A DNA stretch of 64,000 nucleotides from Candidatus Gastranaerophilales bacterium (GTDB lineage Bacteria > Cyanobacteriota > Vampirovibrionia > Gastranaerophilales > Gastranaerophilaceae), in the NCBI GenBank assembly GCA_944326115.1, contig CALVCQ010000002.1, forward strand, positions 1 to 64,000, given 5' to 3'. The notes below the pieces were generated by a model. The model was not told the DNA's origin. It made no database searches and saw nothing but the letters and a program-made list of their open reading frames with translations. Made by a program: the position numbers and the translations under genes. Of this stretch, positions 5,430 to 59,009 are shown one piece after another (position 1 is the stretch's first letter; every line of letters starts with the position of its first letter).

Positions 5430-6035
5430 TTACCAGTCGATATTGTTAACTATTGAATCATAAGCAGCCTGAGCGTCTGTGCTCGAAATAACTTTTATCT
5501 GTCGTTTAGGTCCGTTAATAATGCATGCATTCTGAGAACAATTCTGGAATAGAAAGTTTTGTATACAATCAGTAGTTCCGGGAGTCTGGCATACGACAGC
5601 CGTACTGGAGCCCTGCGGATCAGGGTAGTAATAATATTTTGTTCTTAAATCAGTATTTTGTGCCATAAGATTTTGAAGATTTTGCAAAAAATTTCTTGAT
5701 TCGGCACAAGAACCCGGATAAGCATAATAAATAACCTTTTTATCAGCATAAAGAACATTTGCAAGCTTATCTGTTCTCACTGTATTGTCGACAACATTTT
5801 TTGGAATGTCAAAAGCCATGGGAATATTTTTTATTTTTAATAACCTAAATCCCTGAATTCTGCTAAAATTTGGATTTTTCCTCATATAATCAATATTGCT
5901 CGTAAATAAAGAGATAAAGATAAATATCATCGCAGCAATAAGTATAATGCCGGTATACGGACTTTCTACTTCGTCATCGTTATTACGATAGACTCTTTCA
6001 TTATCGTTTTCTTCTTCTAATAAATCAGGTGTCAT
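5430..6035 (-). CDS. Single-pass membrane protein with Cys-rich outer domain
   Basis: This 201-residue protein has an acidic cytosolic N-terminus of about 25 residues, one strong membrane span (roughly residues 28-46, GIILIAAMIFIFISLF) and a soluble C-terminal domain of about 150 residues. The domain begins with a YYAYPGSCAES stretch that could resemble the first strand and helix of a thioredoxin-like fold, but there is no CxxC. Four more cysteines follow (VVCQTPGTTDC, QNCSQNAC), which may form disulfides outside the cytoplasm. I do not recognise the family. It is divergent from the phosphate-uptake pair. Confidence 0.65.
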   Translation of the reverse strand: MTPDLLEEENDNERVYRNNDDEVESPYTGIILIAAMIFIFISLFTSNIDYMRKNPNFSRIQGFRLLKIKNIPMAFDIPKNVVDNTVRTDKLANVLYADKKVIYYAYPGSCAESRNFLQNLQNLMAQNTDLRTKYYYYPDPQGSSTAVVCQTPGTTDCIQNFLFQNCSQNACIINGPKRQIKVISSTDAQAAYDSIVNNIDW

Positions 6036-9101: not shown

Positions 9102-9899
9102 TTACCATTTGCCGTAATGTATTTTTTGTTTTGCACAGTATTTAACCTGTTCAATTGAAACATTATTCGCAGCGGGATAGCCTAGGCCTATGTAGCACGG
9201 CAGCAAATAGTCGTCAGGTGCACCGACTGTCTTTGCGGCGTTTATCCCCTCATCTGCGACAGGAATTCTCATCGAACAGGCTAGTCCTTCCGCTGTCGCA
9301 GACAGAAAAATATTTTCTATCACGCACCATATAGAAGATAAAGGGTTTAATGAGCTTACGGAAGAAGGATGCATTACTGCAGAATTAGCCTTAAAAAACG
9401 GCAATATTATATGAGAAGCGCTGAACAGCATAGAGTACTGTTTTGGCATTGCATCCGCATACATTTTTTGCTGGGGAGTTCCGTCTGTAAGTATTTGTTT
9501 TAGAATTTCAAGCTGCGGTTTTACACCGTTTTTTATAAATTGAAGCGCTTTTTCTTTATCGTTTTTCATATTGTCAACTGACTCCGACTACTTGTTGAAC
9601 CTGTGCAATAAGCAAGTTCAATATTTAACAATAAGTCCGGCACAGTCAACAAGCGCATGGGGTCACTTCCGTAAAATGCTAGACTCGGCGCCACTCGCAC
9701 TCCGTGTACCACTCCTACAAGCGAGGTCCCACTCAGACATTTTCTCCTCAAGTATTACAAACTCCCAGTTTCTTAAATGATCGTGAGTTGGGGCTTGCAG
9801 CCCGGCATTTATAATTTTTTCAACAATATCAGCAGAAACTTTTCTGTCTTCAAAATCTCTTGTTATGTGTCTTCTGTATATTGCGTCGTATAATTCTAT
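9102..9899 (-). pseudogene. Nitroreductase-family gene interrupted by a 172-bp repeat
   Basis: The two halves of an FMN-type nitroreductase lie either side of a repeat element. The N-terminal half (9899-9740) reads IELYDAIYRRHITRDFEDRK, then LQAPTHDHLRNWEFVIL; the C-terminal half (9569-9102) carries SSIWCVIENIFLSATAEGLA and APDDYLLPCYIGLGYP. Removing the element plus one copy of the flanking 5-bp repeat (177 bp in all) rejoins them in frame as LEEKNDKEKAL, giving about 206 residues, normal for the family. As it stands, the reading frame runs into the element and stops at a TGA (9665-9663). The expected start codon is ATA, eight bases after a good GGAGG, so the start may also have decayed. The gene is divergent from the TolC-like gene. 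Confidence 0.85.
9568..9739 (+). mobile_element. 172-bp MITE-like repeat, copy 1
   Basis: The same 172-bp sequence occurs at 18263-18434 and, inverted, at 58640-58811; I find no difference by eye. It begins ATATTGTCAACTGACTCCGA, ends GAGGTCCCACTCAGACA, and is visibly richer in G+C than its surroundings. The two ends share only a short inverted TGTC/GACA. This copy sits inside a nitroreductase gene and is flanked by TTTTC on both sides (9563-9567 and 9740-9744), which fits a 5-bp target duplication. A 55-codon open frame runs through it but ends in whatever DNA follows, so I do not treat it as a gene. No transposase is encoded. Confidence 0.85.
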
Positions 9900-18245: not shown

Positions 18246-18262
18246 CATCCATAATTATTTTC

Positions 18263-18434
18263 ATATTGTCAACTGACTCCGACTACTTGTTGAACCTGTG
18301 CAATAAGCAAGTTCAATATTTAACAATAAGTCCGGCACAGTCAACAAGCGCATGGGGTCACTTCCGTAAAATGCTAGACTCGGCGCCACTCGCACTCCGT
18401 GTACCACTCCTACAAGCGAGGTCCCACTCAGACA
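18263..18434 (+). mobile_element. 172-bp MITE-like repeat, copy 2
   Basis: This copy reads the same as the one at 9568-9739 over its whole length. The left flank is again TTTTC (18258-18262), but the right flank is ATATC, so no 5-bp duplication is visible. It lies about 80 bases after the dGTPase stop, in an intergenic region. Confidence 0.85.
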
Positions 18435-49588: not shown

Positions 49589-49619
49589 ATTATAATCAAA
49601 AATTTTTTCATATAGTCAA
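49589..49619 (-). promoter_or_regulatory. Promoter of mnmA, possibly giving a leaderless mRNA
   Basis: On the minus strand TTGACT (49619-49614) and TATAAT (49594-49589) are 19 bases apart. The TATAAT ends six bases before the mnmA ATG, so the start site would fall at or next to the start codon. Confidence 0.5.
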
Positions 49620-49694
49620 ACGCTTTCTGTTAAGTTCGGATTTTTGACCCTTATAAATGAATTGTCTGCATTTCGTGCGAAGCGATGAAATTTC

Positions 49695-49813
49695 ATACAG
49701 TCAACTGACACAGATTATTTCTTGGATTCTCTTCACACTCGGAAGTTTCCAATCTTTATACAATCCGTACGCATCAGGATACCCTCGGGCACAAGCGGCG
49801 TCCCTCTCAGACA
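49695..49813 (+). repeat. Short, diverged relative of the 172-bp repeat (119 bp)
   Basis: Both ends match the 172-bp family: TTTCATACAGTCAACTGACA on the left against TTTCATATTGTCAACTGACT, and ACAAGCGGCGTCCCTCTCAG on the right against ACAAGCGAGGTCCCACTCAG, each then reaching ACA. The interior is shorter and diverged, with one similar patch (AAGTTTCCAATCTTTATACA). The end of the inverted gene cassette begins three bases further on. Confidence 0.65.
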
Positions 49814-49816
49814 TCT

Positions 49817-50132
49817 TTTACAACAAGCTGAAACCGATAACACAGTATGTTGAGAAAACTTAAAGCAAAAACAAGCAAAACCTTTGTGTATACTGCGGTT
49901 TTGCTTGTAATCAATTTTAAATTAAGAAAACTAAATTAATCTTAATCAGAATTCATATCCCATACCCTTGATACCTTCTTTGACTTTTTCTTTAAAAATA
50001 TCAATGAGCTTGTCAGAGTTAACGGTATATGAATTAAAATTAGAAGTGGAAGAATCCTGCCCGTCATCAAGATTGCCGAAAGTATAATCAGTAGCAGTAG
50101 CAGATTTATACCCGAGATTGAGGGTGTCTATA
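49817..50132 (-). pseudogene. Inverted, internally deleted copy of the 549-aa gene's 3' part
   Basis: Read on the minus strand, 50132-50042 matches 51088-51178 of the 549-aa gene. It then jumps to 52261 and matches through 52486, covering the last 31 codons, the stop, the terminator and 50 bases beyond. I see no mismatch. The jump falls at CTTCCACTTCT, which occurs at both 51168-51178 and 52251-52261, and removes 1083 bp (361 codons), keeping the frame. The copy has no start codon of its own. It could be dead, or a silent cassette that becomes expressed by inversion. Confidence 0.85.
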
Positions 50133-50142
50133 ATTTTCTTTA

Positions 50143-50345
50143 GATACTTTTCTTTCTTTTATTGTGACGAAAAGAAAGAAAAGTATCACAAAAGAAAGAA
50201 ACACACTTGTTCAAAAGAAACAGTAAAGTGTTTTATCAAAGATTTTGCATCCACAGGGGCTGTCAAAATCTTCTCAAAACACAACTGTTTCTAATCAAAG
50301 TTACAACAGGGGCGTGCCGCCCCCGTACCCCCTGCCTGCACTTTA
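50143..50345. repeat. Multi-hairpin intergenic repeat
   Basis: A perfect 18-bp stem (GATACTTTTCTTTCTTTT at 50143-50160 with 50170-50187, 9-base loop) is followed by a nested stem. In the nested stem, GTGTTTT and AAGATTTTG near 50228-50247 pair with CAAAATCTT and AAAACAC near 50264-50281. A GC-rich hairpin GGGGCG-TGC-CGCCCC follows at 50309-50323. I see no gene between 49583 and 50708. The texture is that of dispersed structured repeats seen in many bacteria. Confidence 0.5.
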
Positions 50346-50560
50346 AAAACTGTTATTATGAAGCGTCAGACAGTCCTTGCGGAAAGAGCGGGTGTGTTCA
50401 GAATCTTTTCGATTTGATAATTAATGACAAATTTGGTAAGCTCTTGAGCTCGAAATGCTCCTCGGGGTCACACTTATATAATTTAAAGTATAGACGTATA
50501 ATGCTCATCAAACTGTATTATAAAAATTTTTGTTTAGAAAACCTATATATATTAAAATTC

Positions 50561-50604
50561 CCGGCGAATCCGGTCGGATATTGCGACCGGATTCGCCGGT
50601 TTTT
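50561..50604 (+). terminator. Very strong intrinsic terminator
   Basis: A perfect 16-bp GC-rich stem (CCGGCGAATCCGGTCG, 7-base loop) is followed by TTTTT. It insulates the 549-aa gene from transcripts entering from the left. No gene is evident immediately before it. Confidence 0.9.
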
Positions 50605-50707
50605 ATTAATTTTTGTAACATTTAATTAACAAATTAAAAAATTCTCTAAAGTTGAGTTATAAAACTACCGATATAAAACATGCAGTAAAAAAAGAACAGG
50701 AGATAAC

Positions 50708-52357
50708 ATGGTTGAAGGTATTGGTGGAACAACTTATTCATTAAGCGGATTAAGTATTTATAATATTTATTATTCAGAGTATCAAAATTATGTGAAAAAC
50801 AATGATACAACGCTTTCTTTTGAATCTTATTTACGTATGAAAGGAAGACTGGAGTATTTCAATCAACAACTTGAAAATTATCTTGAAACCGGAAATGCAT
50901 ATCGTGGTGATGGTATTGACGGCAATACCATAAATGATGCCAGACATGTAGTAAACGGAAATAAAACAATATACCAGTCACCTGATGAAGAGACTTTCTA
51001 TGAATTTGACTTTGAAAAAGGAACATACCGGATTATCGAGGGCAACGAAGAAGTTGCACAGGCACTGGGATTTTCATCAGACACTGATATAGACACCCTC
51101 AATCTCGGGTATAAATCTGCTACTGCTACTGATTATACTTTCGGCAATCTTGATGACGGGCAGGATTCTTCCACTTCTTATCTTAATTCCGGTTACGGCA
51201 ATGTTGCTTATGTTAATCAGGAATTCGATATTCATTATATCCTCAATGCTTTATTAATGAATCCTAATGATCCTCAATATCAAATTGCCGAAGGCATTTT
51301 TAATGATTTAGTTGACAATCTCTACCAGTGGTGTCCTCAATCTGATATTGATGCTCTTGATGAGATTGCAGCTCAATACGGTACGGAATCTGCTGAATAT
51401 AAGGATAAGTTAAAGGAAGTTTTGCTTGCTAACCTTGATCAAGCTAACGAGTGGGTCGAAGATCATGCGCATGTTGAATTTGTTCAGGACTCTACTTTTA
51501 CACAGCCTTCTGACGATTCTTCTGATTCCTCTGATTCCGTCAATCCTGAGGATAAGGTTCCTGAGTATGATAGAGCTAATGCTGCTGCTAGTGCAGGTCT
51601 ATCAACTGAGTATGGTAGTAACGTAAAGGTAGAAACAGGAAAACACTGGGAAGATGACCACGAAATAGAAAATGCAATCGCTGATGCAAAAAGTCAGGCA
51701 GGTGGTTATTTAGACCGGCTCATAGCCGGTATGCAAGCAGAACTTGGTGAAAACTTTACGGAAACAATGCGGACATATTTGAATAAGGCTAAAATAGAAG
51801 TACTTAATAAATATAATTTTCAATATGATGAAGGTCGTAAATTCTTGTCCGGTTGTTATGCAACTGCATGGTTTCATGTTGGAGACTTGGCAAATATGTT
51901 TTATGATGAATTCGACACACTTTGCGCCAATGACGGTAAGTCTTCTGCCGAGGTAGAGGCTGAAAGAAAAGCGGAAGAAGAACGTAAAGCCAGAGAAAAA
52001 TCCGATTACCAGTCTCTCTACAACATGGACTTTAACTCTGCTGCCGATGACGCTGGAGTTCCTGATACCATCACGGTTGTTCCGACTGGTTCTAATCAGT
52101 ATGCACAAATTCAGGAGCGGGCTGAGCGTGACATCCTGGATCCTTTAAAATCAAAAATCAAGTCTCAATATCCGAATATTACGGAAGAAGATCTTGATTA
52201 CATTCTTGATTGGGCTGCGGATGAAGCTCTCTCCAATCCGGACAAATGGGCTTCCACTTCTAATTTTAATTCATATACCGTTAACTCTGACAAGCTCATT
52301 GATATTTTTAAAGAAAAAGTCAAAGAAGGTATCAAGGGTATGGGATATGAATTCTGA
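50708..52357 (+). CDS. Large acidic protein of unknown function
   Basis: The 549-residue protein starts at an ATG with an AGGAGAT ribosome site. It has no signal peptide or membrane span. The sequence is strongly acidic, with Asp/Ser-rich linkers (SDDSSDSSDSVNPEDK near 270), a charged helix (EVEAERKAEEERKAREKSD near 420) and a C-terminal DKLIDIFKEKVKEGIKGMGY. Only three cysteines occur, and no known domain is recognised. Part of the gene (from codon 127) is repeated in inverted orientation upstream with a 361-codon in-frame deletion. Inversion across the shared 91 bp would replace the long C-terminal half by the short tail, giving a protein of about 188 residues. Confidence 0.7.
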   Translation: MVEGIGGTTYSLSGLSIYNIYYSEYQNYVKNNDTTLSFESYLRMKGRLEYFNQQLENYLETGNAYRGDGIDGNTINDARHVVNGNKTIYQSPDEETFYEFDFEKGTYRIIEGNEEVAQALGFSSDTDIDTLNLGYKSATATDYTFGNLDDGQDSSTSYLNSGYGNVAYVNQEFDIHYILNALLMNPNDPQYQIAEGIFNDLVDNLYQWCPQSDIDALDEIAAQYGTESAEYKDKLKEVLLANLDQANEWVEDHAHVEFVQDSTFTQPSDDSSDSSDSVNPEDKVPEYDRANAAASAGLSTEYGSNVKVETGKHWEDDHEIENAIADAKSQAGGYLDRLIAGMQAELGENFTETMRTYLNKAKIEVLNKYNFQYDEGRKFLSGCYATAWFHVGDLANMFYDEFDTLCANDGKSSAEVEAERKAEEERKAREKSDYQSLYNMDFNSAADDAGVPDTITVVPTGSNQYAQIQERAERDILDPLKSKIKSQYPNITEEDLDYILDWAADEALSNPDKWASTSNFNSYTVNSDKLIDIFKEKVKEGIKGMGYEF

Positions 52358-52395
52358 TTAAGATTAATTTAGTTTTCTTAATTTAAAATTGATTA

Positions 52396-52436
52396 CAAGC
52401 AAAACCGCAGTATACACAAAGGTTTTGCTTGTTTTT
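52396..52436 (+). terminator. Terminator of the 549-aa gene
   Basis: CAAGCAAAACC and GGTTTTGCTTG make an 11-bp stem with a 14-base loop, followed by TTTTT. An inverted copy of the same terminator is at 49867-49907. Confidence 0.85.
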
Positions 52437-52496
52437 GCTTTAAGTTTTCTCAACATACTGTGTTATCGGTTTCAGCTTGTTGTAAATAGTAAAAGA

Positions 52497-58639: not shown

Positions 58640-58811
58640 TGTCTGAGTGGGACCTCGCTTGTAGGAGTGGTACACGGAGTGCGAGTGGCGCCGAGTCTAG
58701 CATTTTACGGAAGTGACCCCATGCGCTTGTTGACTGTGCCGGACTTATTGTTAAATATTGAACTTGCTTATTGCACAGGTTCAACAAGTAGTCGGAGTCA
58801 GTTGACAATAT
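58640..58811 (-). mobile_element. 172-bp MITE-like repeat, copy 3 (inverted)
   Basis: This is the reverse complement of the copies at 9568 and 18263, with no difference seen. Read in element orientation, the left flank is again TTTTC and the right flank is ATGTTATAG, so no target duplication is visible. It lies directly upstream of the small gene and calpain-like gene and could carry or displace their promoter. Confidence 0.85.
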
Positions 58812-59009
58812 GAAAAATTAAACTCTTTACAAAATTAAAAATTGCTCTAAATGTCCGGCAATATACTTTGTTCTTTTCATTTTCGTTACAAAGATTAATA
58901 TCCTGCTTGGCTATTTGGTAATTTTTTTAACTTATTATTTATATTTTTGATACAATTATGTCATAGATTTTAAGACTTATAATTTTAAGGGGTATAAGAG
59001 AGGCAAAAA

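Follow-up and report, generated by a model that had tools for sequence, protein, structure and literature searches.

We find that an orphan 549-codon gene in the window (the whole 64,000-nt stretch of Gastranaerophilales DNA analysed here) is preceded by an inverted, shortened copy of its own 3′ end, which probably represents a real and recent partial duplication, a recombination by-product lying beside a mosaic gene that changes place. The gene has been relocated in this genome, and two-tail arrangements are present in two relatives. Such a by-product is a more likely explanation of the copy than a working on/off switch.

An inverted copy of the gene end

The copy spans 316 bp and consists of the inverted 3′ end of the gene together with 129 bp downstream, identical to the parent sequence at 316 of 316 bases and lacking 1083 bp (361 codons) relative to it. 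The deletion lies at an 11-bp direct repeat, CTTCCACTTCT, found twice in the gene and once in the copy. The features of the locus, with positions in the window, are as follows.

49604–52490, no strand assigned: insertion, compared with the related genomes G001 and G014, that separates mnmA from a glycine-rich-domain gene (boundaries ± about 10 bp)
49690–49813, forward: dispersed intergenic element(s), present as a diverged copy whose end is 3 bp away from the inverted copy
49817–50132, reverse: inverted partial copy of the gene 3′ end (residues ~128–157 and 515–549, stop, terminator)
49817–50052, reverse: outer arm on the copy side, 236 nt, 100% identical to its partner at 52251–52486
50042–50132, reverse: inner arm on the copy side, 91 nt, perfect, partner at 51088–51178
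50042–50052, reverse: 11-bp deletion joint CTTCCACTTCT, common to both arms
50134–50358, no strand assigned: dispersed repeat element(s) bearing a terminal hairpin and beginning 2 bp past the inverted copy
50561–50599, T-tail on the forward strand: terminator-like hairpin with a 16-bp stem between copy and gene (z −7.3)
50708–52357, forward: orphan 549-aa gene, mosaic (N-terminal part 50708–51475, variable part 51566–51898, C-terminal part 51899–52354)
51088–51178, forward: inner arm in the gene
51168–51178, forward: 11-bp direct repeat, first copy
52251–52261, forward: 11-bp direct repeat, second copy
52251–52486, forward: outer arm comprising gene end, stop, terminator and spacer, stopping ~10 bp before the next gene
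52395–52432, forward: terminator hairpin of the gene (z about −4), also present in the copy, at 49871–49908

Compared as an inverted repeat, the outer arms are identical at 236 of 236 positions and delimit a 2670-bp unit exactly (49817–52486), and the inner arms extend over 102 nt at 98% identity (50031–50132 and 51088–51189) around the perfect core of 91 of 91 positions. In coding terms, residues ~128–157 are fused to residues 515–549, followed by the stop and terminator, and residues 158–514 are absent. A start codon is missing from the copy, whose frame is open and which still has the TGA stop and terminator hairpin, bearing out the original prediction of a startless copy that keeps its stop and terminator; the mismatch-free inverted 3′ copy with a 361-codon deletion at the 11-bp repeat, also predicted, proved exact to the base. 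Such a copy is far beyond chance, and we infer that it is silent. The earlier argument that perfect arms point to a recent event is upheld, in the form of a recent duplication or conversion. By eye, a similar hairpin-like sequence also seems to be present in G001 (L047, about 5805–5835), at the position matching the hairpin between copy and gene in the window.

An orphan family with an exchanged central region

Searches of the protein and its relatives against Pfam, PHROGs, NCBIfam and PDB sequences returned no credible family, Foldseek searches against PDB and BFVD gave no match at E ≤ 0.001, and Rfam gave no match in the window. The predicted structure (mean pLDDT 81, pTM 0.43) comprises an N-terminal domain at residues ~8–245, a low-confidence linker at 246–282 and a mostly helical C-terminal half. 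The gene occurs in 21 of the 23 genus genomes examined, the window genome included, and a family-wide search showed it to be sparse outside the genus, with a few genomes of other genera carrying it. Two candidate descriptions were set aside: strict restriction to the genus was dropped, since two further genera contain relatives that are full-length or long, and a phage origin is unsupported, zero relatives being present in IMG/VR and phage records. In a genome of another genus (G069, L164:2435–3784), the protein ends at residue ~434, without the C-terminal domain, and has a middle resembling that of G055.

To describe the mosaic structure, we compared the N (residues 1–256), V (287–397) and C (398–549) regions separately. 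Pairwise identities of N and C tend to covary, while V behaves independently (Spearman coefficients of 0.62 for N–C and 0.19 for N–V). Some pairs combine near-identity at the two ends with unrelated middles: L016 and L022 share 93% identity in N, 30% in V and 90% in C, and L015 and L017 share 82%, 28% and 92%. The reverse is seen in distant species with a common middle, where L012 and L022 have identities of 61% (N), 84% (V) and 57% (C), and L011 and L027 of 52%, 81% and 48%. The same steps in identity along the gene appear in DNA windows, and in approximately unbiased (AU) tests of maximum-likelihood trees the data of each region reject the trees inferred from both others. These comparisons indicate that the central region (residues ~287–397) is exchanged between species by recombination, and that the N-terminal part largely follows the lineage. 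N and C are also discordant, more mildly, indicating that the tail recombines too.

Repeated relocation of the gene

Where flanking sequence suffices, most species of the genus have the gene next to one for a 586-aa protein, and where seen, a uracil-DNA-glycosylase gene also adjoins it. At this usual locus, one N-tree clade has the gene pointing one way, and elsewhere it points the other; the opposite orientation relative to the 586-aa neighbour (L047–L066) apparently reflects a single flip in the usual place. In the window genome, the usual locus is without the gene, with 157 bp between its neighbours, and the gene instead separates mnmA from the gene for a glycine-rich-domain protein; these two are immediate neighbours in G001 and G014. 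In a further genome, G007, it lies between aspS and a fur-like gene, a pair that are not neighbours in three relatives tested. These new places in the window genome and in G007 indicate that the gene moved more than once in the clade. The genes scanned around its present position (45.6–55.5 kb) encode a RelA/SpoT-domain protein, a radical SAM protein, MnmA, the glycine-rich-domain protein, a PPIase and an M24 peptidase.

Second tails in related genomes

G001 carries an inverted tail upstream of the gene with 216 open codons, identical to the gene at 570 of 653 bases (87%). Between tail and gene, dN is 0.06 and dS 0.5 (dN/dS about 0.13), and 53 of 82 differences fall at third positions, a pattern that implies constraint at the protein level in one or both copies after they separated. 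A 74-bp run of identity within the tail suggests conversion, and this second tail may derive from the active gene of another species. In G014, the end of contig C4 (L065) and the start of contig C8 (L067) have exactly 99 bp in common and from there lead to different tails, next to the 586-aa gene in one case and next to gltX in the other, the shared upstream part being missing from the bin. This looks like a branch in the assembly graph in which one upstream sequence leads into two tails, representing two genes or two orientations, and each tail may be part of a full gene of its own.

The clade might possess a two-tailed invertible locus, at which the promoter and N-terminal half flip between two inverted, diverging tails, such as the intact second tail of G001 and the two tails on one upstream sequence in G014, and feed the variable region that is exchanged across species; the window copy would then be a collapsed tail marking the ‘off’ position. 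We consider this reading as a whole unlikely. Of the 21 genomes of the genus that carry the gene, only 3 have a second tail, and none of the other loci examined has one, so the pattern is not general.

Origin of the inverted copy

Inversion between the inner arms would join residues 1–157 to 515–549, and the predicted product of about 188 residues proposed earlier follows arithmetically (549 − 361 = 188). The 157|515 joint falls inside a predicted strand (154–159) of the predicted N-terminal domain, and the product would retain neither linker nor variable region and would lose most of the C-terminal half; judged by the structural model, it is probably non-functional. Inversion between the outer arms would flip the whole gene and leave the protein unchanged. 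The original prediction had raised a possible switch by inversion between the 91-bp arms. An active switch of this kind would alternate proteins of 549 and 188 residues (in effect on and off), and the 236-bp arms would flip the gene as a whole. The arms are perfect, in frame and long enough to invert in principle, since at pneumococcal spnIII inversion takes place at 85-bp and 333-bp repeats without a site-specific recombinase or RecA, reaching 16.8% within a colony on the 333-bp repeat and 1.5% on the 85-bp repeat (PMC6620402). Arms of such size can invert, so low-level inversion may occur, and G001 has a similar layout with an intact alternative tail under apparent purifying constraint. This much of the prediction stands; however, the short product is cut at residue ~157 inside a predicted domain, the recombinase expected of a site-specific inverton is missing among the neighbours scanned (45.6–55.5 kb), and all 18 full-length relatives that we aligned have the long form, answering the check on short or long forms that had been suggested. 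A dedicated switch is not supported in the window, and an active one is improbable. Less likely still is that the gene moved as a transposon-like unit bounded by its 236-bp perfect inverted repeats. The outer arms bound the 2670-bp unit exactly, and the gene has been relocated in the window genome and lies elsewhere again in G007; however, these arms are the gene's own 3′ end and not ends shared with other copies or relatives, the relocated gene in G007 is without them, no transposase occurs among the neighbours scanned (45.6–55.5 kb), and a clear target duplication was not seen.

The remaining alternative is that the copy arose by misassembly, strain mixture or amplification. The source genome, 2.15 Mb in size, is a draft of 92 contigs, and repeats flank the copy on both sides. 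Rearrangements produced by multiple displacement amplification are, in >85% of cases, inverted joins with an intervening deletion (PMC1855051). The copy, too, is an inverted sequence with a deletion, lying at a short common repeat, so the form of the copy alone cannot decide against an artefact. As a control, we examined 468 kb of the same genome, drawing on about 392 kb of additional sequence from it, in 20–24 kb blocks for inverted repeats of ≥70 bp and ≥96% identity. The two arms of the copy were the sole pairs to pass, and the remaining repeat pairs were all direct, apparently mostly dispersed elements, which makes systematic chimerism unlikely. An artefact would also require three independent novel joints, at 49816/49817, 50042–50052 and 50132/50133, of which two coincide with ends of elements, and a lone case with three joints differs from what amplification would be expected to leave. 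Moreover, the diverged inverted tail in a related species, from a separate assembly, is impossible as such an artefact, and the usual locus without the gene in this genome is consistent with the gene's present place. Named originally as the main alternative, an artefact is weakened by the uniqueness of the copy in 468 kb and by its three joints, and now appears unlikely.

For a real, recent partial duplication, the joints suggest a course of events. The whole gene moved to its new place in the window lineage and, during or after this move, an inverted copy of its 3′ end would have been made beside a dispersed element; the 1083 bp would have been lost by a jump at the 11-bp repeat while copying, or by a later slippage deletion there. 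The position of the copy would be explained by a break where an element ends and its repair with the adjacent gene end as template, and we infer this copying mechanism from the joints. On this reading, the arms are an accident-prone recombination substrate, not an evolved switch.

Comparison with known systems

The hsdS loci (SpnIII/SpnD39III) share with the window a truncated inverted gene copy beside an expressed gene and in-frame 3′ exchange on inversion, with perfect internal arms of 85 and 333 bp there and of 91 and 236 bp here, above the 20 bp of perfect arm common to the expressed gene by which we recognised this type. In contrast, the silent hsdS copies are functional, with alternative recognition domains, and the protein is unrelated, whereas the window copy is identical to its parent and has no variable region, and no recombinase was seen; a silent copy with a different functional variable domain is found in part in G001.

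Conversion of the pilS/vls type draws on several diverse silent copies carrying the same variable region. The window resembles these systems in that a 5′-truncated copy accompanies an expressed gene made up of variable and conserved blocks, and the diverged intact tail of G001 could serve as a donor; unlike an array of cassettes, however, the window genome has one degenerate copy, without the variable region. In the Ureaplasma MBA/UU172 system, inverted repeats also lie within coding sequence and inversion can yield chimeric genes (PMC3047005), but there the inverted repeats are specific and alternating expression of membrane proteins has been demonstrated, whereas the arms in the window are long and homologous.

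Of more interest than the copy itself is the wider family, in which middles are swapped and inverted second tails occur now and then. It points to a modular, fast-evolving protein in uncultured gut Gastranaerophilales, with a central domain swapped between species and a gene that moves and gains second tails. A full-text search of the open-access library found no paper on phase variation in Gastranaerophilales; if the two-tail inversion were active, it would constitute a phase- or antigen-variation system in this group.

Dispersed elements

Dispersed elements like those flanking the copy are numerous in these genomes. Among them is a 177-bp intergenic element with at least 15 full-length copies, 100% identical, in 456 kb of the window genome, including three in the window (9563–9739, 18258–18434 and 58640–58816). 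It has no Rfam match and its fold is not clearly better than that of shuffled sequences. A stretch related to it is ~91% identical to one in G001. With weak terminal inverted repeats (TGTC..GACA), the element is MITE-like, and is recently active or homogenised.
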